Of a stretch of 64,000 nt of DNA, positions 5,228 to 39,213 are shown piece after piece. The notes below the pieces were generated by a model. It made no database searches. It worked only from the letters and a program-made list of their open reading frames with translations, and was not told the origin of the DNA. The DNA lies in assembly GCA_004298155.1 (NCBI GenBank), contig SCRD01000001.1, positions 248,001 to 312,000 on the forward strand, written 5' to 3'. The stretch comes from Acidobacteriota bacterium (lineage in GTDB: Bacteria; Acidobacteriota; Terriglobia; UBA7540). A program made the position numbers and the translations under genes. Positions within the stretch are counted from its first letter, which is position 1, and every line of letters starts with the position of its first letter.

Positions 5228-6766
5228 TTAGGAGCGGCACCTGGGGCGTTTTTCCGATGACTTGCAGAAATAGGCTTGCAACGCCTGGATAAGACCAGCA
5301 ACCGTTGAATCCGTGGCTTCGATGGAAACATCAAGACCGTGCTTGCGGCACGTCTCCGAAGTAACAGGGCCGATGGAGGCGATGACAACGCGCTCCAGGA
5401 TTTTGCGGAGGCCAGCGTTCTCAATCAAATTCACAAAGTTTGTGACGGTGGAGGAGCTCGTGAAAGTAACCGCATCTGGCACAGGAGTGAGGAGACGCTT
5501 AACCTCGCCCGCGGGAAGTTCAGGCCGGACCGTTTCATAGGCTTCAACGACCTCCACGCGAGCGCCGCGCTCCTCAAGCGAGCGATGAAGAATATCGCGC
5601 GCGACCTTTGCTCGCGGAATCAGGAATGCCTTGCCGCGAACCTCGGCGCCCTTCAAGCATTCAATCAGCCCTTCCGCCCTGTATTCATGAGGCAGGAAAT
5701 CGGCGCGGATACCGGTGGCGGCAAGTTCAGCCGAGGTGCCGGGTCCGATGGCCCCGATCTCGAGCCCCTTCAAATCGCGCACATCGCGGCCGCACGCTGC
5801 GAGCCGGCCCAGGAATTTCCTGACGCCGTTGGCTGAGGTGAAGAGAAGATAATCAAATTCCTGCAGCCGGCCAATCGCTTCATCGAGCGGCTTCGTGGAT
5901 TGCGGATCGCGAATTTCAATTGCGGGAATCTCGATGGCTTCAGCTCCCAGGCTTTCGAGGGCGTCTCTGAAGATGGTAGCTTGTCCGCGCGTCCGTGTTG
6001 TTACAATGCGCCTCCCGAAAAGCGGCAGGCGCTCAAACCACATCAATTCCTCGCGCAGGCCGACAACATCTCCCACCACAATGATCGCCGGCGCTTCAAT
6101 CCCCTCAGCCAGCTGCGCGATATCGGCCAGCGTACCTACAACGGTTTGTTGCGCAGCACGGGTTCCCCAGAAAATGACTGCAACCGGAGTGCTCGGGTCT
6201 TTGCCTCCTTTGCGCAGGGCCGCGCTGATCTCGGCCAGATTTCGGACGCCCATGAAAAGGACAAGCGTATCCGCCCCATCTGCAAGTTTTGTCCAGTCGA
6301 TACTGCCAGACGACTTGGACGGATCTTCATGGCCCGTCACGAAAATGACGCTTGATGACACGTCGCGATGCGTCAAGGGAATTCCCGCGTAGGCCGGGGC
6401 CGCATAACCTGATGTAATGCCCGGAACGACCTCGAATGGGATGCCTGCGTTTGCCAGCGCCTGGGCCTCTTCGGCACCGCGTCCGAAAATGAACGGGTCT
6501 CCGCCTTTCAGCCGGACCACAACATTACCTTGCGCTGCCTTGCTCACCAGCAGCTGATTGATGGCTTCCTGGGGTGAATTCCTGTCACCCGGCCGCTTGC
6601 CCACGCAGATCCTCTCGCACTCCGGCCGCGTATGCCTCAGGAGGTCCTCGTTGGCGAGAAAGTCGTAGATAACAGCGTCGGCGCGTTCAAGAGCCGCCTT
6701 GCCCTTGAGCGTCAACAGGCCGGTGTCGCCCGGCCCCGCCCCGACTAGATAAACCTTTCCGACCAT
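5228..6766 (-). CDS. cobA-hemD: Fused uroporphyrinogen-III methyltransferase / uroporphyrinogen-III synthase
   Basis: A 512-residue bifunctional protein. Residues 1-240 are a SUMT/CobA methyltransferase (VYLVGAGPGDTGLLTLKG at the N-terminus, then VVRLKGGDPFIFGRG near 80), which makes precorrin-2 for siroheme and cobalamin. Residues about 255-500 are uroporphyrinogen-III synthase HemD, including TSANGVRKF and the FTSSSTVTNF stretch. The fusion couples closure of hydroxymethylbilane to the first branch-point methylation. It is the last gene of a minus-strand heme cluster behind hemC, with a 54-base gap. The fusion is known in several phyla. No precorrin-2 dehydrogenase/ferrochelatase domain is attached. 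Confidence 0.95.
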   Translation of the reverse strand: MVGKVYLVGAGPGDTGLLTLKGKAALERADAVIYDFLANEDLLRHTRPECERICVGKRPGDRNSPQEAINQLLVSKAAQGNVVVRLKGGDPFIFGRGAEEAQALANAGIPFEVVPGITSGYAAPAYAGIPLTHRDVSSSVIFVTGHEDPSKSSGSIDWTKLADGADTLVLFMGVRNLAEISAALRKGGKDPSTPVAVIFWGTRAAQQTVVGTLADIAQLAEGIEAPAIIVVGDVVGLREELMWFERLPLFGRRIVTTRTRGQATIFRDALESLGAEAIEIPAIEIRDPQSTKPLDEAIGRLQEFDYLLFTSANGVRKFLGRLAACGRDVRDLKGLEIGAIGPGTSAELAATGIRADFLPHEYRAEGLIECLKGAEVRGKAFLIPRAKVARDILHRSLEERGARVEVVEAYETVRPELPAGEVKRLLTPVPDAVTFTSSSTVTNFVNLIENAGLRKILERVVIASIGPVTSETCRKHGLDVSIEATDSTVAGLIQALQAYFCKSSEKRPRCRS

Positions 6767-6820
6767 GTCAATCCATTCAGCGCCGAAAGACCGGCTTCAT
6801 TTAGGCGGCCCGGAGCGAAA

Positions 6821-7741
6821 CTACCCTGGGTCCATTCCCGGAAGGCTCAGGAGTTCGCGCGCACCCTGGCCAAAGAGCTCCGTTGCCACCTGCCTTCCCA
6901 GGTCCTCAGGGTTCTCCAGCTCACCCGTCGCCATTGCTCGAAGCACCCGGGTGCCGGCGGGGTCTGCCACCACTCCCGTCAGATGGAGTCTCCCGGAATC
7001 GTTTTTTGCGTACGCCGCAATAGGGAGCTGGCATCCGCCACCCAGTGCCTCAAGCATAGCCCTTTCCGCGCGGATTGCTCGGTGAGTTGCCGGATGGTCA
7101 AAAGCCGCAATCACCTCTTCCACTGCCGCGTTGTGTGTTCTGATTTCAATGGCAAGCGCTCCCTGTCCGACGGCCGGGCAAATTTCATCTTCCCGGAACC
7201 AGCTCGTGATGTGGGAGGCAAAACCCAGGCGCCTTAAACCAGCGGCGGCCAGCACCAGCGCTTCACAATCGCCTCGCTCAAGTTTTCGCAGTCGGGTATC
7301 CACGTTGCCGCGCATTGGGACAACCTCCAGGTCGGGGCGCAAGGCAAGCAGTTGAGACTGCCGCCGTAGGCTGCTGGTTCCTATGCGCGCTCCGGCGGGA
7401 AGGTCCTGCAAAAGCAAGCCGCCCCTTGAGACGAGCGCGTCGCGCGGGTCCTCGCGCTGCGGGACCGCCGCTATGCCCAGTCCTTCGGGCAGGCCAGTCG
7501 GAAGGTCCTTCATGCTGTGGACCGCAAGGTCCACCTGGCCAGCCAGCAATGCCTCTTCAATTTCCTTGATAAACAGGCCTTTAGTTCCGGAAGCGGCCAG
7601 GGCGGCATTCTGGAGCCTGTCGCCGCTGGTCTTGATGATATTGATTTTGACTTCGTGGCCTGCGGACGCTAGATGGTCCTTCACCCAGTTCGCCTGCCAT
7701 AGCGCGAGTGAGCTTCCACGTGAACCGATAGTAATCTTCAT
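6821..7741 (-). CDS. hemC: Hydroxymethylbilane synthase (porphobilinogen deaminase)
   Basis: HemC joins four porphobilinogen units into hydroxymethylbilane in the cytoplasm. The 306-residue length is standard. Clear motifs are GSRGSSLALWQ at residues 6-16, KTSGDR at 37-42, DLAVHSMKDLPT at 71-82, IGTSSLRRQ at 120-128 and MRGNVDTRL at 143-151. The dipyrromethane cofactor cysteine is Cys237 in GGGCQLP. It sits between hemA (105-base gap) and cobA-hemD, in pathway order. The ATG at 7741 directly precedes the conserved KITIGSRGS and is therefore secure. Confidence 0.97.
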   Translation of the reverse strand: MKITIGSRGSSLALWQANWVKDHLASAGHEVKINIIKTSGDRLQNAALAASGTKGLFIKEIEEALLAGQVDLAVHSMKDLPTGLPEGLGIAAVPQREDPRDALVSRGGLLLQDLPAGARIGTSSLRRQSQLLALRPDLEVVPMRGNVDTRLRKLERGDCEALVLAAAGLRRLGFASHITSWFREDEICPAVGQGALAIEIRTHNAAVEEVIAAFDHPATHRAIRAERAMLEALGGGCQLPIAAYAKNDSGRLHLTGVVADPAGTRVLRAMATGELENPEDLGRQVATELFGQGARELLSLPGMDPG

Positions 7742-17437: not shown

Positions 17438-17457
17438 CCCATGGCTCACGCCATGGG
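17438..17457. repeat. CCATGG-type hairpin repeat
   Basis: CCCATGGC and GCCATGGG flank a TCAC loop, a perfect eight-pair stem. I recall CCATGGC...GCCATGG hairpins of this form as recurring intergenic palindromes in Acidobacteriota, but the window holds only this copy. Confidence 0.6.
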
Positions 17458-17542
17458 CTAAATTCTTTTGGCCCTCCGAGCCTCAGGAAAGCGGTCGGGG
17501 GAAAGCAGAATGCAGCGGGCGGAGCGGGAATTCACAGCTCGA

Positions 17543-27404: not shown

Positions 27405-28445
27405 TTAAATCCGGGCCACGGTCTCGCGCACAATCAGGTCCGTTGCGAGGGTCTTTTCAACAAAAGCCATTTCCGGATGGCGGAGCCTTTCGAGAAGGGT
27501 GCGCAGGCATACCTGGCCTATCTCTTCTTTTCGGACCCGCACCGTCGTCAGCGGTGGGTCCATAAGCATTGCTTCTTCACGATCGTCGAAGCCAATCAGG
27601 CTGATGTCATCCGGGATGCGAATGCCGCGGCGGCGGAATGATCGCCACAGCCCGAAGGCCACCTCATCATTTAACGCGACCACAGCGGTTGGCAACGGTT
27701 TGCGGGCCAGGACCAGGTCGCAGGCCCATGCTCCATAGTCCACAAACCCGGACGGGCGGGCATTCGTAATAAAAGCTGGCTTGATTTTGGCCTCATGGGT
27801 TGCTTTCAAAAAACCGGCATGGCGATTTCGGCCCCACGGGTAGGTGAGATCGCCCACGAAGACGATATTGCGGTGTCCCTGGCTGATCACGTAGCGGACC
27901 GCTTCGTATTCGCCTCGGAAGCCATCGAACCCCACCTGGTCAAAGTACTTGTCCCCCTTGAAGTCAAAGACATTGTTACCGAAAACAACGAACGGAATCT
28001 GCATCTTCTCGATTCGCGTCAGGAAGTTGGGGTAGTTTGTCCCGGAAAGAATTATGCCGTCAAACAGGCCACGTTCTTCCAAAATGGGCGGCAGGGTGAT
28101 GTAGTGGGGGGATGTCGTGGGCTCATAATGGACGGCCGTAAAAAGAACGTGCTGCTTGAGTTCCCGGGCATAGTCTTCCACGCCCTGTAGAATACGAGCA
28201 TGAAAAGAGTTGGGAAATTCCCTGTTACTGAGCACAAAGCAGACAATTTCAGACCGCTTCCGGTGGATCCGGCGCGCCTGAGCGTTAGGTCTGAAGCCAA
28301 GATGGCGGATTGCCAGCGCAACGCGTTCATGGGTAGCATGGCTAACCTGGGCGCCTCCGTTCAAGACCCGAGAAACAGTCCCAATTCCCACCCCTGCATG
28401 GCGGGCAACGTCCCGGATAGTTGCTGCGGTGCGTGGTTGATTCAC
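27405..28445 (-). CDS. LacI-family transcriptional regulator
   Basis: 346 residues starting at GTG. Residues 8-60 are the LacI helix-turn-helix and hinge (TIRDVARHAGVGIGTVSRVLNG, shown here only in part, then RPNAQARRI). The remainder is a periplasmic-binding-protein-like sugar sensor, with IILSGTNYPNF, FVVFGNNVF and FDDREEAMLMDPPLTTVR. It is divergent from a TonB-dependent receptor gene and presumably controls it in response to a sugar. The ligand is unknown. The intergenic region carries promoter and inverted-repeat candidates. Confidence 0.93.
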   Translation of the reverse strand: MNQPRTAATIRDVARHAGVGIGTVSRVLNGGAQVSHATHERVALAIRHLGFRPNAQARRIHRKRSEIVCFVLSNREFPNSFHARILQGVEDYARELKQHVLFTAVHYEPTTSPHYITLPPILEERGLFDGIILSGTNYPNFLTRIEKMQIPFVVFGNNVFDFKGDKYFDQVGFDGFRGEYEAVRYVISQGHRNIVFVGDLTYPWGRNRHAGFLKATHEAKIKPAFITNARPSGFVDYGAWACDLVLARKPLPTAVVALNDEVAFGLWRSFRRRGIRIPDDISLIGFDDREEAMLMDPPLTTVRVRKEEIGQVCLRTLLERLRHPEMAFVEKTLATDLIVRETVARI

Positions 28446-28843: not shown

Positions 28844-31800
28844 ATGAGTGGTAACGGTTCCAACTATGATCGACGGGTATTCACTCTCTTACGGAGCTTC
28901 ATTCTGGCCGCCTTTGTCCTTTCGATTTTCCTGGCTGTTCCAGGAACAGCGATGGCCCAGGTTCTTTACGGCACCCTCGTTGGCAACGTTGTAGACCCCA
29001 CCGGCGCGGTCGTTCCAGGAGCGTCCGTCGCGGTTACCCAGACAGAAACCGCCCTCACCCGCCAGGTACGGACGGATTCCCGCGGCGGGTACACGATTTC
29101 GACCCTTTCAGCAGGCACTTACACGGTCAAAATCGAGGCTAAGGGATTCAAGACGTTTTCAAAGTCTGACGTGAATGTAGCTATCAACACGGTCAGCCGT
29201 GTGGACGCAACCCTTGAGGTTGGGGCGGTAAGCCAGACCGTGGAGGTCAGCGCCAGCGCTGCAATGCTGCAGACCGACCGTGCCGACGTCCATCATGATC
29301 TCAGCGCCATGCAGATCCAGAACATTCCTTTGGCGCCGGGCAATAATTTCGAACACCTTTTCCAGTCGCTTCCAGGGGTCACCCCGCCTGCAAGCTCGCA
29401 CTCCGTTGCGACCAACCCCACGCGTTCCCTGGCATTCAACACGAACGGTGGGAGCGACTTTGGCAATACAATCATGGTGGACGGCGTTACGCAGTGGAAT
29501 ATCTGGGTGCCGGAAGATTCCTCATATATCCCTTCTTCCGACGCCATTGAGACCGTCAATGTCAGTACCAACAACTACAATATTGACCAGGGGTTTGCCG
29601 GGGGCGCTGCTGCCAACGTGCAAATCAGGAGTGGCACCAACCAGTTCCACGGCGATGCATACGAATATAATTACACAAGTGCTCTGGAGGCCCTGCCTTT
29701 CTTCGCGCCCCAACTCAAGCAAACAAGCGTTCCCAAGGACGTTTTTAACCAATTTGGCGCAAGCTTTGGCGGACCCATCAGGAAAAACAAGCTCTTCTTC
29801 TTCTCCAACGTTGAATTCACGCGAGACTACCAGTATGCGACGAGCGTGAACACTATTCCGGATGCGGCAATGCGGGCAGGTGACGAGCGAGGGTTGGCCG
29901 GGGCTGCCGCCGGCCTTACCAAGACCAACCCGGATGTTATTTACGACCCCACAACGGGAGTTTCAAGCGGCAAAAACCGGACGCAGATCTTTGCCACCAA
30001 CAATTCGGGCGACCCCGGCACTTACAATTCCCTTTGCAACGCAGGTGATCCAGGCAGCGTACTATTAGGCAGCGGCTTCACGCAATGCCCGAACGTCATT
30101 CCGACCAGCCGCATCAGCTCCACTGCAACCGCACTGTTCAACATGTTGCCACAGCCGAATGAGTCAAGTTCCAGCAGCAGTACGGTTTCGAACAACTATT
30201 TGGGCGCCGCAGACGTCCACTTTAACCGCGTCACGACTGACGACAAGATCAACTGGAACGCTACCGACAAGTTCACCATGTATGGCCACATCGGCTACCT
30301 CAACTTCGGGACGCTCAATCCGCCGATTTTCGGCTACCCACTGGGGGGACCCCAGGCAAGCGGCTTCATCGGCAACGAGGGCCAGGCGGACGGACATACC
30401 ATTACTTTCAGCGTGACCGGCAACTACGTGGCGACGCCTAATTTTGTGATTGACACCAGCTTTGGCATGACGCGCCAGGTTATCAATTCCCAGCAACTTG
30501 ACCTGGCCAAGGATGAGGGCCAGGCTCTGGGCATTCCCGGCACGAACGGCTCACGACCGTTCGAGGGCAGCATGCCGGAATTCAGCATCAGCGGCTTTGC
30601 AGTCCTCGGTACGCAGCACAACTTTATGCCTTACTTCCGCAATGACCCCCAGTTCTCCTGGACCGGCAACGCCAATTGGATCCACGGCAGCCATTCCGTT
30701 CGTTTTGGCGGCGCTATTGGTATCCAGCACTTAAACCAGCAACAGCCTGAATGGAACGCCGGCGGCACCACGTGGCCCGCCGCGGGCGGGTTCGGTTTCG
30801 GGACCGGGACGACCCAATGCGGCAATTGTAGCAAGTCAGGGAAGACGAGCGCCGCAAACAACTATAACGACATCGGGAGCTTCCTCCTCGGCCTCGATAA
30901 CGCCTGGGGCAGGAACATCCAGATTCCCGACTTCTTCCATACGGTCACTCACATGTTCGCACTTTATGTTGGCGACACTTATCAAGTGACACATAAGCTG
31001 ACGGCGACCTATGGGGTCCGGTGGGAATACTATCCTTTCCCGACTCGCGCCGGAACTCCAGCCGGCGTGGAGTATTATGATTTTAAGTCAGGGCTGATGT
31101 TAAACTGCGGCGAAGGTGGCAACCCGATTGATTGCGGGACCTCGGTGGGCGGCAAGTATTTCTCTCCGCGCATCGGTCTGGCGTACCGGGCCACGAACTC
31201 CACAGTCGTTCGCGCCGGATACGGCATGAGCTATGAACCCTTCAACATCATGGATAACCTTCGAACAAACTACCCCATCCTGATTCCGCTCAATGAGGGT
31301 ACCCCCAATTCACTGACGGCTGCCGGTGCGTTTGACGCTTCGAGCTTGCAGAATACGCCTGCCGGCGAATGTACGGCTTTCGCCTCCTTCTGCTTTGGGC
31401 CTGGCGGGACCCTTCCCGTAGGGATTCTGGCGCCACCGCTGCCCAGCCTGACGGCCGCTTCAAACCCGATTCCTGGCAACGTCAACCTGGTGACTGCAAC
31501 CGACCACGTGAAACGCGGGTATATTCAGTCGTGGAATTTCGTGGTTGAGAGACAATTGCCCGGAGGGTGGCTTGCCACGGCAGGATACGTGGGCACGCGA
31601 ATCGTAAATCAGCTCGGAGTCGAAAATCTGAACGTCCAAAGCCCCATCGCCCCTGCCGGTTGCACGCCCGGCGTCAACTGCGGCGGCGTCGCCAGCGAAG
31701 TGTACAATTTTAATGGCAGCAATAAGGCACTGTGCCCAAGCGCTGCCAGCACAGATCTTGGCTGCCGGACCGGCGGGACCTCCATTGTCACGCCCATTGC

Positions 31801-32602
31801 CAGCGGGCATTACGACTCTCTGCAGGCGACGATGAGGCACCACTGGGCCAGCGGTTTTGACGTGAGTGTGGCCTACACATGGTCCAAGACAATAGGGGAG
31901 TCGGGGGGAGCTGGAGGAACCGTAGGGTTCGACGAGAAGAGCCAGCTTTATATCCCCGCTCCTGCTTTTTACGACCTGAATTTCGGCCTGGCTCCATCTG
32001 ACCGTCCTCAGAATTTTGAGGCGACCTTCATTGCTGACTCTCCGTTTGGCGCCAGCCACCGTTTTGCCAAGACCGGGGTCGCAGGCAAGCTCCTTGGCGG
32101 ATGGCAGTTTAGTGGATTGATCACTTCGGTTTCAGGGACCCCCTTCCAGATGACTGCGGATGGGACCTCATTGAACGCATCAGGCAACGCGCAGCGGCCC
32201 GACCGCTTGTGCAGCAGCATCGGCAATCCCAAGAACGTCGGTGCGGGTGAACAATGGTTTGATCCGACCTGCTTCAGTGGGATTGACTCGCAGCGTTTTG
32301 GTACGTCCGCATTTTACGTGCTCCATGGACCGCACCTCTTCAATATGGATGCGGGGCTCACCCGAAAGTTCAGGCTCACGGAGCGCTTGGGTCTGGAGTT
32401 TCGCGCTCAGGCCCTTAATTTCACCAACACGCCGCACTTCGCCAACCCGAACGCCAGTTGCGGTACCATCCCGACGGGGGCGACGGGTGGGTGCAACGGC
32501 TCTACTTTCGGCGAGATCACCAGTGGCCAAGGGACAGTCAACTTCGCGCGCGAAGGTATTGATCCTCGACAACTCGAGTTCAGCGCTCGAATAACCTTTT
32601 AG
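28844..32602 (+). CDS. TonB-dependent receptor with carboxypeptidase-regulatory domain (Oar-like)
   Basis: A 1252-residue outer-membrane protein. After a signal peptide (about residues 1-38, ending AMAQ) comes a carboxypeptidase-regulatory Ig-like domain (about 40-125; GNVVDPTGAVVPGASVAV, GYTISTLSAGTYTV). A plug region follows (about 130-280) with a TMVDGVTQWNIW segment, then a large beta-barrel ending in the aromatic strand LEFSARITF. This architecture is greatly expanded in Acidobacteriota and is thought to import large substrates, often oligosaccharides. AAGGAGGGAG precedes the ATG. A strong terminator follows at 32633. Substrate is unknown; the divergent LacI regulator suggests a sugar. 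Confidence 0.92.
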   Translation: MSGNGSNYDRRVFTLLRSFILAAFVLSIFLAVPGTAMAQVLYGTLVGNVVDPTGAVVPGASVAVTQTETALTRQVRTDSRGGYTISTLSAGTYTVKIEAKGFKTFSKSDVNVAINTVSRVDATLEVGAVSQTVEVSASAAMLQTDRADVHHDLSAMQIQNIPLAPGNNFEHLFQSLPGVTPPASSHSVATNPTRSLAFNTNGGSDFGNTIMVDGVTQWNIWVPEDSSYIPSSDAIETVNVSTNNYNIDQGFAGGAAANVQIRSGTNQFHGDAYEYNYTSALEALPFFAPQLKQTSVPKDVFNQFGASFGGPIRKNKLFFFSNVEFTRDYQYATSVNTIPDAAMRAGDERGLAGAAAGLTKTNPDVIYDPTTGVSSGKNRTQIFATNNSGDPGTYNSLCNAGDPGSVLLGSGFTQCPNVIPTSRISSTATALFNMLPQPNESSSSSSTVSNNYLGAADVHFNRVTTDDKINWNATDKFTMYGHIGYLNFGTLNPPIFGYPLGGPQASGFIGNEGQADGHTITFSVTGNYVATPNFVIDTSFGMTRQVINSQQLDLAKDEGQALGIPGTNGSRPFEGSMPEFSISGFAVLGTQHNFMPYFRNDPQFSWTGNANWIHGSHSVRFGGAIGIQHLNQQQPEWNAGGTTWPAAGGFGFGTGTTQCGNCSKSGKTSAANNYNDIGSFLLGLDNAWGRNIQIPDFFHTVTHMFALYVGDTYQVTHKLTATYGVRWEYYPFPTRAGTPAGVEYYDFKSGLMLNCGEGGNPIDCGTSVGGKYFSPRIGLAYRATNSTVVRAGYGMSYEPFNIMDNLRTNYPILIPLNEGTPNSLTAAGAFDASSLQNTPAGECTAFASFCFGPGGTLPVGILAPPLPSLTAASNPIPGNVNLVTATDHVKRGYIQSWNFVVERQLPGGWLATAGYVGTRIVNQLGVENLNVQSPIAPAGCTPGVNCGGVASEVYNFNGSNKALCPSAASTDLGCRTGGTSIVTPIASGHYDSLQATMRHHWASGFDVSVAYTWSKTIGESGGAGGTVGFDEKSQLYIPAPAFYDLNFGLAPSDRPQNFEATFIADSPFGASHRFAKTGVAGKLLGGWQFSGLITSVSGTPFQMTADGTSLNASGNAQRPDRLCSSIGNPKNVGAGEQWFDPTCFSGIDSQRFGTSAFYVLHGPHLFNMDAGLTRKFRLTERLGLEFRAQALNFTNTPHFANPNASCGTIPTGATGGCNGSTFGEITSGQGTVNFAREGIDPRQLEFSARITF

Positions 32603-32765: not shown

Positions 32766-33755
32766 CTAGGCTGATTGGCCCTCTTCGGCGGCGAGGATTT
32801 CTTCAGGCGAGGCGGTGCCGGTCCCTCTTTTCATAATGGTCACTGACGCCGCAAGGTTACCCAGGCGTGCCGCGGCAACAGGATCGCCGGTGGCGGCCAG
32901 CGTGAGGGCGCAAGCTGCGGCAAAACTGTCTCCTGCCCCACAAATGTCGATTGGCTTTTCAACCGGACGGGTTTCTGCCCACGCCTCCCCTCTATCCCAC
33001 GTTATCAAAGCGCCTTTCGGGCCGTGGGTAACAATCAGGACTTTTGCCTCAAGATGCCGCCGGAGGGCGGAGAAGTCGACTCTCCCGAAAAGACTTTGGC
33101 TGGCGGCTTCCGCTTCGTCGCGATTGGGTTTCAGGACTACCTTGCGGAAAAAGTGAAGTCGCTTGCGGGAATCGGCCAGGAAAATCTTTTGCGGATATTT
33201 TTCTGCGAGATGGATGAGCAAATCGCGCACCGCCGGCGTGATAACCCCTCCTGCGCTGGTTTCTGCCTGATCGGCGACAAGGATGACGTCGAAGAGGGGA
33301 ACGGCCCATAAAATATTTTCGATTACCTCCTGCTCTGCATCCGTAGGTAACGGCCGGGTTGAAATGAAATCGACGCGTGGCTGGTCTTCTTCTTCGGTGC
33401 TGCTGTTCAGCAGTTTTGTGTAAGTGAAGGTCTGCCAGTCCTGGATTTTCACCATGCGGTCTGCGCAGATTCCGCGGGCGGCGAGAGCTTGTCTCAGCTC
33501 GAACCCAAAGCCGTCATCACCTCGGATGCCGATCACTTCAACCTGACCTGCGCCGAGAGCAGCCAGATTGTTTGCCACCGTTCCCCCGCCACCCGGAGTC
33601 ACCTCGGTTGAAACGACGCCCAGGCGCGGAATGCCCGTCTCGCGGGAAGGTTCGGAGCTGGCCGGGTCATAGCTACACCAGCGGTCGAGGCAGATGTCAC
33701 CGATCACCAGGGCCTTGAGGCCGTGAAAGGCCGCGAGAATTCCAGGCATGTTCAT
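32766..33755 (-). CDS. PfkB-family sugar kinase, RfaE/HldE kinase-like
   Basis: The ATG at 33755 with GGAGG upstream gives 329 residues; it overlaps the stop of the preceding gene by four bases (ATGA). The N-terminus VIGDICLDRW, then TPGGGGTVANNLAALGA, resembles the kinase half of heptose enzyme RfaE/HldE. The PfkB signature GAGDSFAAACALTLA near residue 272 holds the catalytic Asp, and KPNRDEAEAAS is the usual second landmark. It likely phosphorylates a sugar or sugar phosphate. It is the last gene of a HAD, DHS-like, kinase operon. The substrate is unknown; a heptose-like sugar is a guess from similarity. Confidence 0.85.
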   Translation of the reverse strand: MNMPGILAAFHGLKALVIGDICLDRWCSYDPASSEPSRETGIPRLGVVSTEVTPGGGGTVANNLAALGAGQVEVIGIRGDDGFGFELRQALAARGICADRMVKIQDWQTFTYTKLLNSSTEEEDQPRVDFISTRPLPTDAEQEVIENILWAVPLFDVILVADQAETSAGGVITPAVRDLLIHLAEKYPQKIFLADSRKRLHFFRKVVLKPNRDEAEAASQSLFGRVDFSALRRHLEAKVLIVTHGPKGALITWDRGEAWAETRPVEKPIDICGAGDSFAAACALTLAATGDPVAAARLGNLAASVTIMKRGTGTASPEEILAAEEGQSA

Positions 33756-34720
33756 TCGGCCTCCAGCAATGCGCGCCGAAGCGCCGGGACCGTAGCGCGA
33801 TGGTCTCCACAAAAATAAAAACTCTCCCCTCCGTCAGCAACGGTCCGGACCAGGATGGTCTTGTGCGGGCGGAAGTAATACCCCGGGTCGGTTTTGGGCA
33901 GTTCATGGTGAATATCACCCTGAATGGGCACCAGGTCAAAAACTGCCGTCGTGAAGTGTTTAATAGTGCGTCGCTGTTGCCGGGCCACATTGCGGACCAT
34001 CGAGAGCGACTTCAGGTAGACTTCCGGCCCCATGATGGATGTCCCGAAGTCGAGCATCACGCCACCTTCCAGGCTTTCCACGGTATGTGTGTAAATCAGG
34101 AAGTCGCGGTAGCTGGCCGCGCCCAGGGCTGCGCCGTCGCAATTGGGGTGCTCGTGAGTGATGTCGTAGCCGACGCCCACGTGGACCGTCAACGGAACCG
34201 ACCGGCGGTAAGCTGCGGCAAAGATGCTGACGTCCTTGTAAGGAAAGTTACTGGCGTCGATGTGGCGTCCGACGTTTTCACCGAGTCCCAGTGAAAGATC
34301 GGCGGCCTCTTTGATGACATCATTCAAGTCTCCCGTTTCCCGCCACAGCCCGAACTCACCCGTCTGGATGTAACGGGCCACGCTTTCAGTGGTGGCACCG
34401 ATGCGCGCCAGTTCGTAATCGTGAATGGCGCCTGCACCGTTCATGGCGACGTGGCTGATGAAGCCTCGATTGATGAGGTCGATGACGTGCCGGCTTGCGC
34501 CCATCTTGATGACGTGGGCGCCCATCATCAGGATTCTGGCCGCGCCATTGCGTTTGGCGGTGATGATCCGGCGCGCGACATCAGGGAGATGAGGATGTGA
34601 AAAATCCGGTGCAGGATCGTCGAGGCCAAGCACGTAATCAAGCTGCATATCGTGCCTGCGCTCGCCGAGCGGCTTGACCACCAGCCTGGACCGGTCAAAC
34701 AGTTTGTATTTGGATGCCAT
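33752..34720 (-). CDS. Deoxyhypusine synthase-like protein of unknown function
   Basis: 322 residues. The segments ARILMMGAHVIKMGASRHV, HVAMNGAGAIHDYELARIG and ARYIQTGEFGLWRETG near residues 60-135 resemble the NAD-binding architecture of deoxyhypusine synthase. SVPLTVHVGVGYDITHEHP near 200 and LDFGTSIMGPEVYL near 245 fit too. Bacteria lack the eIF5A substrate, so homologs act on other substrates (homospermidine synthase is one known case). Its gene lies nine bases after a HAD phosphatase and overlaps the kinase gene, so all three belong to one pathway. The active lysine was not confirmed. The assignment is from memory of the family and is moderate. Confidence 0.68.
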   Translation of the reverse strand: MASKYKLFDRSRLVVKPLGERRHDMQLDYVLGLDDPAPDFSHPHLPDVARRIITAKRNGAARILMMGAHVIKMGASRHVIDLINRGFISHVAMNGAGAIHDYELARIGATTESVARYIQTGEFGLWRETGDLNDVIKEAADLSLGLGENVGRHIDASNFPYKDVSIFAAAYRRSVPLTVHVGVGYDITHEHPNCDGAALGAASYRDFLIYTHTVESLEGGVMLDFGTSIMGPEVYLKSLSMVRNVARQQRRTIKHFTTAVFDLVPIQGDIHHELPKTDPGYYFRPHKTILVRTVADGGESFYFCGDHRATVPALRRALLEAE

Positions 34721-34729
34721 GTTTCGCCG

Positions 34730-35536
34730 TCACTCAGGGAATAAGGTTTCTAAAAGCTCGTCGCGGCGGAGATAGTTGGGAATGATGTAGTCTGCACCTA
34801 CGCCGGCCAGGCGGTCACGCTTCCATTTGTCAACTTCGTGACACTTGGGTTCGTCTGTGGCCACGCCGACCGCAATGCCTCCAACTTCCTTGACGTTCCT
34901 GACCTCCACGTAGCCGTCGCCAAACCCCAGCAGTTCGTCACCGCGGCATTCCATGGAGCCGATCATCTTTTGGATCAGCATCGCCTTTGAAAAACTCTTG
35001 TAGTCGTCCAGGGCGCCGTAAATTCCGCCATCGAAGTAGGGCGTGATCTGGAGCATTTCGGCTTCTTCAACCGTGTAAGTGTGGTCTGTGCCGCTGGCGC
35101 AGTAGAGCCTGAATCCGCGCGCCTTGAGCGAGTCGAGCAGCGCCCGGGCGCCCGGAACGAGATACTTGTCAGGCGGTTCTTTCCTCTGCCGCAATGCTTC
35201 GCGCCGGTGGTAGATTTTCCCCATCAGGCGGTCATGATACACGTTCTTGTAGGCCAGCGGCTCGAGCGGCTGCGCGCCGCGCAACTTCACCTGGTTGGCG
35301 AGTTCAATCATCTGGTAGATCGTCTGCTTGCCGGTCAATCGAGCAACATAATCTTTTACCAGCGTCTGGAGTTCCGCTTCGCTTTCTCCGGTCTTCAGTT
35401 CCGAGAGAATCTCAACCATCATGGGAACCATAACGTCAATCCATCCCGCCCGGAGCAGCGAGAGTGTGCCGTCAAAATCGAATAGGACCACCCGCGTCCG
35501 CCTCGCTGATGAACCGGGATGAAGACACTCAATCAT
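34730..35536 (-). CDS. HAD-family hydrolase, probable sugar phosphatase
   Basis: 268 residues with HAD motif I LFDFDGTLS (nucleophile Asp20, acid Asp22), motif II region YCASGTDHTYT near residue 150, a lysine region SFSKAMLIQKM near 180, and motif IV GFGDGYVEVRNV near 200. The insertion between motifs I and II (residues 30-130) is a helical cap. It is the first gene of a three-gene minus-strand operon with the DHS-like and PfkB proteins. A phosphatase paired with a sugar kinase suggests synthesis or turnover of a phosphorylated sugar. Substrate unknown. Confidence 0.83.
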   Translation of the reverse strand: MIECLHPGSSARRTRVVLFDFDGTLSLLRAGWIDVMVPMMVEILSELKTGESEAELQTLVKDYVARLTGKQTIYQMIELANQVKLRGAQPLEPLAYKNVYHDRLMGKIYHRREALRQRKEPPDKYLVPGARALLDSLKARGFRLYCASGTDHTYTVEEAEMLQITPYFDGGIYGALDDYKSFSKAMLIQKMIGSMECRGDELLGFGDGYVEVRNVKEVGGIAVGVATDEPKCHEVDKWKRDRLAGVGADYIIPNYLRRDELLETLFPE

Positions 35537-38081: not shown

Positions 38082-38453
38082 TTGTTCAGCGGCGGTTTCA
38101 CTGAAGTCGGGTTTATTTTATTCATCGCCTTTCTTCTTTTCGGGCCGAAGAAGTTGCCAGAGATCGCGCGCATCCTCGGCAAGGGGATGGGAGAACTGCG
38201 CCGTGCTTCAAACGAGCTGAAGAACTCACTGGAAGAGGAGATTCGAAACCTCGACCGCAAGGACGAGGAACCCAGTTACTCTCATCACGAGACGCATCCC
38301 TATTCGCAATTAGAAGAGGAAGGCTTTGAACACCCGGCAGAGACGCACGAACTGAACACTGAGTCCGAAAGCAGTCTGGAGCCGGCTCCTGAGTATGGCT
38401 ACGACTATTCAGAACCCTCCCAGCAGGAACCCGAACCACGGCCCCGAGGATGA
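38082..38453 (+). CDS. tatA: Sec-independent protein translocase subunit TatA/TatB
   Basis: 123 residues starting at TTG with AGGAGAGG upstream. Residues 5-22 are the short N-terminal transmembrane helix ending in the conserved FGPKKLPEIARILGKG, followed by an amphipathic helix (MGELRRASNELKNSLEEEI) and a long acidic, Pro-rich tail (residues 60-123). TatA oligomers form the pore of the twin-arginine pathway. TatB cannot be excluded because the helix has no obvious discriminating residue and the tail is long. TatC is encoded next and overlaps by 59 bases. Confidence 0.92.
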   Translation: MFSGGFTEVGFILFIAFLLFGPKKLPEIARILGKGMGELRRASNELKNSLEEEIRNLDRKDEEPSYSHHETHPYSQLEEEGFEHPAETHELNTESESSLEPAPEYGYDYSEPSQQEPEPRPRG

Positions 38454-39213
38454 CGAATTCAGCGGCAAGCAGATGTCGTTCCTCGAACATCTCGAGGAAC
38501 TTCGGCAGAGGCTGGTTCGCAGCGCCATCTCCGTCTTCGTCGGCTTCATGGTCTGCTTCTATTTTTCCGACAATATCTACGGCCTGCTTGCCAAGCCGCT
38601 CACAGACACGCTTCAAGGTCTGCACATGGCAGACAAGTTGGTCTACACCAACCCTGTTGACCCTTTCAATCTCTATATCAAATTGTCCATTGTGGGCGGC
38701 ATTTTTCTGGCCTCGCCTTACATCCTGCTCCAGTTGTGGTTGTTTATCTCTCCCGGCCTCTACCGGCATGAGAAGCGTTACATCTGGCCGTTCGTGGGGC
38801 TGACGAGCGGCCTGTTTTTTGCGGGCGGCTTCTTTGCGTACCGTTTCGCTTTCCCAGCAGCCCTGAAGTTTCTGCTGGAATTCGGTCACCGCTTCACGCC
38901 CATGATTACCATTCATGAGTATTGGAGCCTCGCGCTGACCATCATCCTGGGTGTCGGCGTCGTTTTCGAGTTGCCTGTCGTCATTCTGCTTCTTTCGATC
39001 TTCGGAATTGTCACTCCAAAATTCCTGCTGAAAAATATCCGTTATGCGGTGATTATTACAGCCGTGGTGGCTGCAGCGCTTGCACCCACGCCAGATTGGA
39101 CCACCCTGTTCATGTTCTGGATGCCGCTGGTTGGCCTTTACGTTGTCAGCATCGGCCTCTCATGGCTCGTCTATTTCCGGAAAGACTGGAAGCAGCGGCA
39201 TGAGAAGGCATAG
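38395..39213 (+). CDS. tatC: Sec-independent protein translocase subunit TatC
   Basis: 272 residues from the ATG at 38395; the conserved start MSFLEHLEELRQRLV lies at residue 27 (38473), and translation may start there. Six transmembrane helices are seen (for example ISVFVGFMVCFYFS and LALTIILGVGVVFELPVV), with the TatC hallmark AALAPTPDWTT near residue 227. TatC recognises the twin-arginine signal peptide. The gene overlaps tatA by 59 bases and the glutaminyl cyclase gene by 14 bases, so the three are one operon. Two Tat-type signals occur in this window (CRTAC1 genes). Confidence 0.95.
   Translation: MATTIQNPPSRNPNHGPEDDEFSGKQMSFLEHLEELRQRLVRSAISVFVGFMVCFYFSDNIYGLLAKPLTDTLQGLHMADKLVYTNPVDPFNLYIKLSIVGGIFLASPYILLQLWLFISPGLYRHEKRYIWPFVGLTSGLFFAGGFFAYRFAFPAALKFLLEFGHRFTPMITIHEYWSLALTIILGVGVVFELPVVILLLSIFGIVTPKFLLKNIRYAVIITAVVAAALAPTPDWTTLFMFWMPLVGLYVVSIGLSWLVYFRKDWKQRHEKA

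Follow-up and report, generated by a model that had tools for sequence, protein, structure and literature searches.

Within a 64,000-nucleotide stretch of the genome of an Acidobacteriota bacterium (contig SCRD01000001.1; the whole stretch is called the window here), three open reading frames (ORFs) on the minus strand encode, in order, a HAD-superfamily phosphatase, a protein of the uncharacterised GSU2086 family and a PfkB-type kinase, with intergenic gaps of +9 and −4 bases. That these genes form a conserved three-gene sugar-phosphate module is well supported, and the module is probably of heptose type. Our tentative reading is that the operon acts on a heptose-7-phosphate-type sugar phosphate and that its GSU2086 protein makes a hydride transfer of the kind that uses nicotinamide adenine dinucleotide (NAD), perhaps an epimerisation, where we infer both the substrate and the reaction. 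Judged from its sequence, the GSU2086 protein likely runs a sugar reaction of a kind so far undescribed. The original prediction for this DNA had described the same three genes, spaced by nine and minus four bases, and that layout stands.

The GSU2086 protein and the deoxyhypusine synthase fold

The middle protein of the operon belongs to NCBIfam family NF052581, the GSU2086 family (377.6 bits, against a cut-off of 250), and its closest named relatives come from metagenome-assembled genomes of Acidobacteria (locus L032, 85% identity). No Pfam match to deoxyhypusine synthase (DHS; PF01916, gathering score 27 bits) was found at E≤1. The ArgZ-like domain PF21570 scored 23.5 bits, below its cut-off of 27, and the ornithine cyclodeaminase model TIGR00300 scored 18.6 bits, far below its cut-off of 410.8. 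Six relatives from the sister clade described below, clade A, score 28–31 bits on PF01916 when adjacent pieces are summed. Solved structures are remote in sequence, with a best E-value of 0.33 for the single sequence and 5e-4 for a profile.

The AlphaFold2 model of the protein, made from 66 sequences, has a pLDDT of 94.2 and a pTM of 0.92. Its top structural matches are to the ornithine cyclodeaminase domain of AgrE/ArgZ (Z 19.6–20.3, root-mean-square deviation 2.7–3.4, 205–221 residues), and it also resembles a Methanococcus LOR/SDH protein (Z 19.1) as well as deoxyhypusine synthases, for which Z reaches 18.2 over 238–266 residues. Alignment of 141 GSU2086 sequences with 12 PF01916 proteins of the same phylum by hhalign gave a probability of 95.4 and an E-value of 1.7e-8 over 201 columns, and a probability of 97.2 in global mode. 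Together, the structural matches and the profile alignment indicate that the predicted DHS/ornithine cyclodeaminase fold of the GSU2086 protein, and its remote kinship with these enzymes, are real. Fold and remote homology are thus common to the GSU2086 protein, DHS and AgrE/ArgZ, whereas its matches to the family models of the latter two are absent or below cut-off. The original prediction had called the protein DHS-like and had staked itself on the fold, which was looked for and is present. From the modelled fold, the protein may be expected to bind NAD.

The GSU2086 family carries its own signature

The similarity to DHS does not extend to the active-site signature. Our set comprised 201 GSU2086 sequences, 31 of them from short loci (L001–L031), of which 24 repeat genes present elsewhere in the set. 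The WGK signature of DHS occurs in none of the 201 but in 10 of the 12 PF01916 proteins, whereas the motif PE-x-x-LK is found in all 201 GSU2086 sequences and in none of the 12. In a MAFFT alignment, GSU2086 proteins have a gap opposite the EA-SWGK stretch of DHS. Global hhalign pairs SWGK with a PK-x-D stretch that is limited to clade B, the clade of the window protein; the lysine of that stretch falls short of 90% conservation. The SWGK lysine is, we assume, the catalytic lysine of DHS, K329 in the human enzyme, for which a K329A structure entry is known by title. Inspection for an active lysine, proposed at the outset, came out negative for the DHS type. Twenty-eight positions are invariant across the 201 sequences, including H69, H100, D101, E103, D186, E233, K237, D262, R284 and R292.

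Because the WGK signature is missing from the GSU2086 family, we judge polyamine or hypusine chemistry unlikely, and the polyamine link entertained in the original prediction loses its footing. Its further argument, that bacteria lack eIF5A, does not single out this gene, since an ordinary PF01916 protein (295 bits) is encoded elsewhere in the same genome.

The kinase and the phosphatase

The best match of the PfkB kinase among the 19 NCBIfam models listed was TIGR02198 (RfaE domain I). A profile of 24 kinase sequences retrieved the heptose-7-phosphate kinase HldA (4e84) as its top solved match, at E 1.8e-28 and near full length, the next match being at 6e-19. The sequence GAGD at residues 273–276 is invariant in the 24 aligned sequences. 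HldA thus appears to be the closest solved relative of the operon kinase, which upholds its earlier description as RfaE-like; phosphorylation of O-1 of heptose 7-phosphate is suggested by this kinship. In the HAD protein, D20, D22, S148, K184, D207 and E211, which we take to be the usual HAD motif residues, are invariant in 22 aligned sequences. The profile of the HAD protein retrieves generic HAD phosphatases only.

Conservation of the module in clade B

A tree of the 201 GSU2086 sequences separates clade A (111 loci) from clade B (90 loci, including the window), repeats counted. Of the 286 relatives that the window protein retrieved, the named loci are the best 80, and clade-B counts therefore lean towards the window's own kind. 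Neighbourhood counts exclude L001 and, in clade A, all of L001–L031 but seven; genome G012, which belongs to clade A, also stands outside them.

In clade B, a same-strand HAD gene lies within 400 bases upstream of the GSU2086 gene in 58 of 87 scorable loci, and a same-strand PfkB gene within 400 bases downstream in 63 of 82. The full triad of HAD, GSU2086 and PfkB genes, on one strand and within 400 bases each, is present in 50 of 80 scorable loci, the window included; many of these 50 are closely related and do not represent 50 independent cases. The linkage exceeds chance. Absence of linkage in related genomes had been named in the original prediction as a refuting result; linkage holds in these 50 loci and not in the other 30. 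Record titles of the triad loci name Acidobacteria, Chloroflexi, Armatimonadota, Latescibacterota, Gemmatimonadetes, Bacillota and Zipacnadia. In planctomycete locus L099, a single 667-aa ORF fuses PfkB and HAD and adjoins the GSU2086 gene on the opposite strand.

In 22 of 53 clade-B loci a same-strand GmhA-like gene lies no more than 3 kb away, and an HldE adenylyltransferase does so in one of the 53. Clade-B locus L173 combines an HldE of reversed order with a distantly GmhA-like protein, GSU2086, a short-chain dehydrogenase/reductase (SDR) and two transketolase halves. Its HldE-like protein (L173, 5796–7343) has the adenylyltransferase domain first and the kinase second.

Some clade-B loci have other neighbours. 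In the planctomycete/Phycisphaerae loci L100, L103, L104, L105, L106 and L108, the representative of a neighbouring gene scores 306 bits as an XrtA/PEP-CTERM-associated ATPase, for which the cut-off is 324.5, and the setting of these loci is likely surface polysaccharide. Among them, only L103 has HAD and PfkB matches in the available flank. In the Bacillota-labelled loci L075, L076, L078, L082 and L098, the neighbours of GSU2086 include ABC permease and MFS-type genes, as assigned by cluster; two of them encode a URO-D-like protein, and none has a same-strand HAD or PfkB gene within 3 kb. In L150, an ORF between a ROK kinase and a HAD gene (5814–7097) was read by eye as a 6-phosphofructokinase.

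Sister clade A lies near heptose genes

The window protein is a member of NF052581, but clade B is set apart from clade A by its HAD and PfkB partners. In clade A, none of 83 loci has an upstream HAD gene, one of 82 has an adjacent PfkB gene, and none of 77 has the triad. GmhA is at most 400 bases away in 17 of 77 clade-A loci. Heptosyltransferase-like (WaaF-like) genes lie no further than 1.5 kb away in 5 of 70, and 2 of 51 have an HldE adenylyltransferase at up to 3 kb. On the gmhA model, whose cut-off is 209.45, three clade-A isomerases reach 196–200 bits. Locus L170 carries, in a row, GmhB, GSU2086, the HldE kinase, the HldE adenylyltransferase and GmhA. Taken over both clades, GmhA-type, HldE, heptosyltransferase and transketolase neighbours in relatives support the heptose-like substrate that the original prediction had raised.

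One study of Geobacter sulfurreducens (PMC5585712), the only article in the library searched that names GSU2086, lists, among genes affecting electrode growth, GSU2085 hldE (−3.1), GSU2086 (−3.2) and GSU2087 gmhA (−3.7), locus numbers that place GSU2086 between hldE and gmhA. Membership of this G. sulfurreducens protein in NF052581 rests on the name of the family. Literature searches combining the GSU2086 family or its fold with heptose terms returned nothing beyond this article.

Distribution of HldD and the adenylyltransferase

Among 297 genomes of the same phylum, 93 have GSU2086 and 66 have HldD above the respective cut-offs; 2 genomes have both, against 20.7 expected. Matches to HldD over the cut-off score at least 276.5 bits, and the next among the matches listed reach 158.9 bits at most. 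HldD is found in none of 89 clade-A genomes versus 66 of 208 others (p 2.8e-12, counted per genome), and within family f22 the corresponding figures are 0/6 versus 11/12 (p 3.8e-4). The source genome has no HldD over the cut-off, and the middle protein itself does not match the HldD SDR model TIGR02197 at E≤1.

For clade B, 20 genomes were chosen from the 80 named loci for tests of HldD and rfaE domain II, the adenylyltransferase. None has HldD over the cut-off. The rfaE domain II model matches at E≤1e-40 in 14 of the 20, over its cut-off in 7, and weakly in 2. Within the phylum, co-occurrence with rfaE domain II is uninformative, as it has a match in 280 of 297 genomes, 190 of them over the cut-off.

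Surroundings of the operon

The source genome comprises 5.2 Mb in 29 contigs. Features of the window are collected in Table 1. The length of the kinase is counted from the ATG that overlaps the upstream stop, whereas the mechanical ORF list begins at TTG 33812. A small ORF lies 5' of the operon on the same strand, and its counterpart precedes the HAD gene in L032. On the other side, a large outer-membrane-receptor-like gene separates the module from a LacI-type regulator. In L032, the LacI-type gene lies about 460 bases past PfkB, and the arrangement in the window is an apparent insertion or rearrangement. Promoter and terminator scans returned 4 sites against 1.4 expected and 7 against 4.1 expected, respectively, and were not used as evidence.

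Table 1. The operon and other features of the window
Feature	Position	Strand	Matches and remarks
HAD-superfamily phosphatase, 268 aa, operon gene 1	34730-35536	-	PF00702 E 8.1e-10; PF13419 E 9.7e-7
GSU2086-family protein (DHS/ornithine cyclodeaminase superfamily), 322 aa, clade B	33752-34720	-	NF052581
PfkB kinase, HldA/RfaE-domain-I-like, 329 aa	32766-33755	-	PF00294 E 1.6e-28; ATG shares 4 bases with upstream stop
ORF, 119 aa	35652-36011	-	No NCBIfam match at E≤1e-10
Outer-membrane-receptor-like gene	28844-32602	+	Read by eye
LacI-type regulator	27405-28445	-	
Acido-Lenti-1 RNA (RF01687)	17438-17483	+	42 bits
TatA/B-like ORF	38082-38453	+	Read by eye
TatC ORF	38395-39213	+	Read by eye

A possible heptose 1-phosphate pathway

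In the pathway that we propose, a GmhA-like isomerase, encoded near the module in many relatives and elsewhere in the source genome, would supply heptose 7-phosphate. The HldA-like PfkB kinase would phosphorylate O-1 of this sugar, and the HAD enzyme would strip the other phosphate in the fashion of GmhB. The GSU2086 protein, with an NAD-type cofactor, would act on the same sugar phosphate by a redox-neutral hydride transfer, of which an epimerisation is the likeliest form, and the end product would be a heptose 1-phosphate destined for a surface glycan. Known members of the DHS/ornithine cyclodeaminase fold carry out NAD-dependent, redox-neutral chemistry. Epimerisation by hydride transfer is preferred because of this chemistry and because the sister clade occurs where HldD is missing.

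The ADP-heptose pathway, which runs through GmhA, HldE (HldA), GmhB and HldD, offers a close comparison. The operon kinase is nearest HldA, the neighbours are GmhA-like and, in L173, of HldE type, and the HAD phosphatase could fill the part of GmhB, although it differs from GmhB in type. The operon departs from that pathway in having no adenylyltransferase, in the general absence of HldD and in the addition of an enzyme of the DHS superfamily.

Several observations weigh against the proposed pathway. Foldseek TM-scores of the model to DHS and AgrE are modest (0.43–0.53 by query length). The kinase falls below the HldA equivalog cut-off (148.5 versus 345 bits on TIGR02198), and the HAD protein has no GmhB model among its 12 NCBIfam matches at E≤1, being instead of the HAD_2 type. 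Five isomerases near clade-B genes, together with that of the window genome, score only 74–128 bits on the gmhA model, which makes the isomerase of the window's clade a distant GmhA relative. Neither a HAD nor a PfkB gene lies on the same strand within 3 kb in 14 of 80 clade-B loci, L099 among them, and 4 of the 20 chosen clade-B genomes have no rfaE domain II match. As for HldD, 140 of the 297 genomes have neither it nor GSU2086, and the two genomes carrying both, G024 and G050, have clade B only. Counted by family, with any GSU2086 clade, the exclusion does not reach significance (p 0.19, with 3 families shared); few independent events may therefore underlie it, and relatedness inflates the genome count. 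Finally, the source genome already has, at locus L177, two WaaF-like genes, a GmhB-like gene, an adenylyltransferase (181.2 bits against a cut-off of 181.5) and a separate HldA-like kinase (264 bits against 345). The operon would thus add a second route or one of a different kind.

A plain lipopolysaccharide (LPS)-heptose operon was also considered for the window. It was not accepted, because LPS-core-like heptose genes lie elsewhere, in L177, and because none of 69 scorable clade-B loci has a WaaF- or GmhB-like gene (E. coli queries) within 1.5 kb.

Alternative explanations

The main rival to a biosynthetic pathway is a catabolic role for the window's clade. ROK and PfkB kinases would phosphorylate an imported sugar, which would feed central metabolism after isomerisation by a SIS protein and a change made by GSU2086, with the HAD enzyme in a house-cleaning role. 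ABC sugar importers in Chloroflexi- or Bacillota-labelled loci and ROK kinases in several clade-B loci suggest sugar uptake and count against the heptose pathway. Several clade-B loci have an ABC importer, a solute-binding protein, a ROK kinase or an aldose-1-epimerase-like gene (the last a weak match), and a same-strand ROK kinase lies within 3 kb in 9 of 53. Both the window and L032, its closest relative, have a LacI-type regulator past the module. The only GmhA-like match of note in the source genome (L176, 108.8 bits) sits among genes read by eye as Gfo/Idh-type oxidoreductases. However, the sister clade lies near LPS/heptose genes, L173 has a biosynthetic look, as does L087 with its SDR and glycosyltransferase, and the strong rfaE domain II matches in 14 of the 20 chosen genomes point the same way. 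On balance we regard a catabolic module as less likely than the heptose pathway.

Other explanations concern the GSU2086 protein itself. It could be a non-catalytic or regulatory partner, since it has no known activity and a kinase and phosphatase could cycle alone; its 28 invariant positions look like an active site, however, and clade A occurs without the HAD gene and nearly without an adjacent PfkB gene, which makes this idea improbable. Slightly less credible still is a nickel-pincer-nucleotide enzyme that epimerises a sugar phosphate through a hidden hydride without NAD. NCBIfam calls the weakly related TIGR00300 ornithine cyclodeaminase nickel-pincer-nucleotide-dependent, and the source genome encodes LarC (PF01969, 488.7 bits). 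Yet the protein's match to TIGR00300 is far below cut-off, AgrE 6lrg, among the closest solved folds, is titled as a complex with NAD+, LarC may serve other enzymes, and no article in the library searched names 'nickel-pincer' together with 'ornithine cyclodeaminase'. Superfamily homology would also allow DHS-like amine chemistry, by which GSU2086 would add or remove an aminoalkyl group on a sugar phosphate. With WGK absent from the entire family set and no polyamine enzyme among the neighbours scanned (cluster representatives only), we give this explanation the least credence of all.

Implications

A broader and doubtful extension of the heptose pathway is that GSU2086 proteins are epimerases of heptose or heptose phosphate that have so far gone unrecognised, and that they replaced HldD in much of Acidobacteriota through clade A. 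Clade B would then represent a second heptose 1-phosphate pathway, present also in Chloroflexota, Armatimonadota and others. If this is true, a superfamily known for hypusine and proline formation would gain a sugar branch, and lineages seemingly without a heptose epimerase would be explained. A testable role would fall to an uncharacterised family that 93 of the 297 sampled genomes of the phylum carry, and the similar values of GSU2085–GSU2087 in the Geobacter study point to Geobacter as a laboratory organism for such a test.

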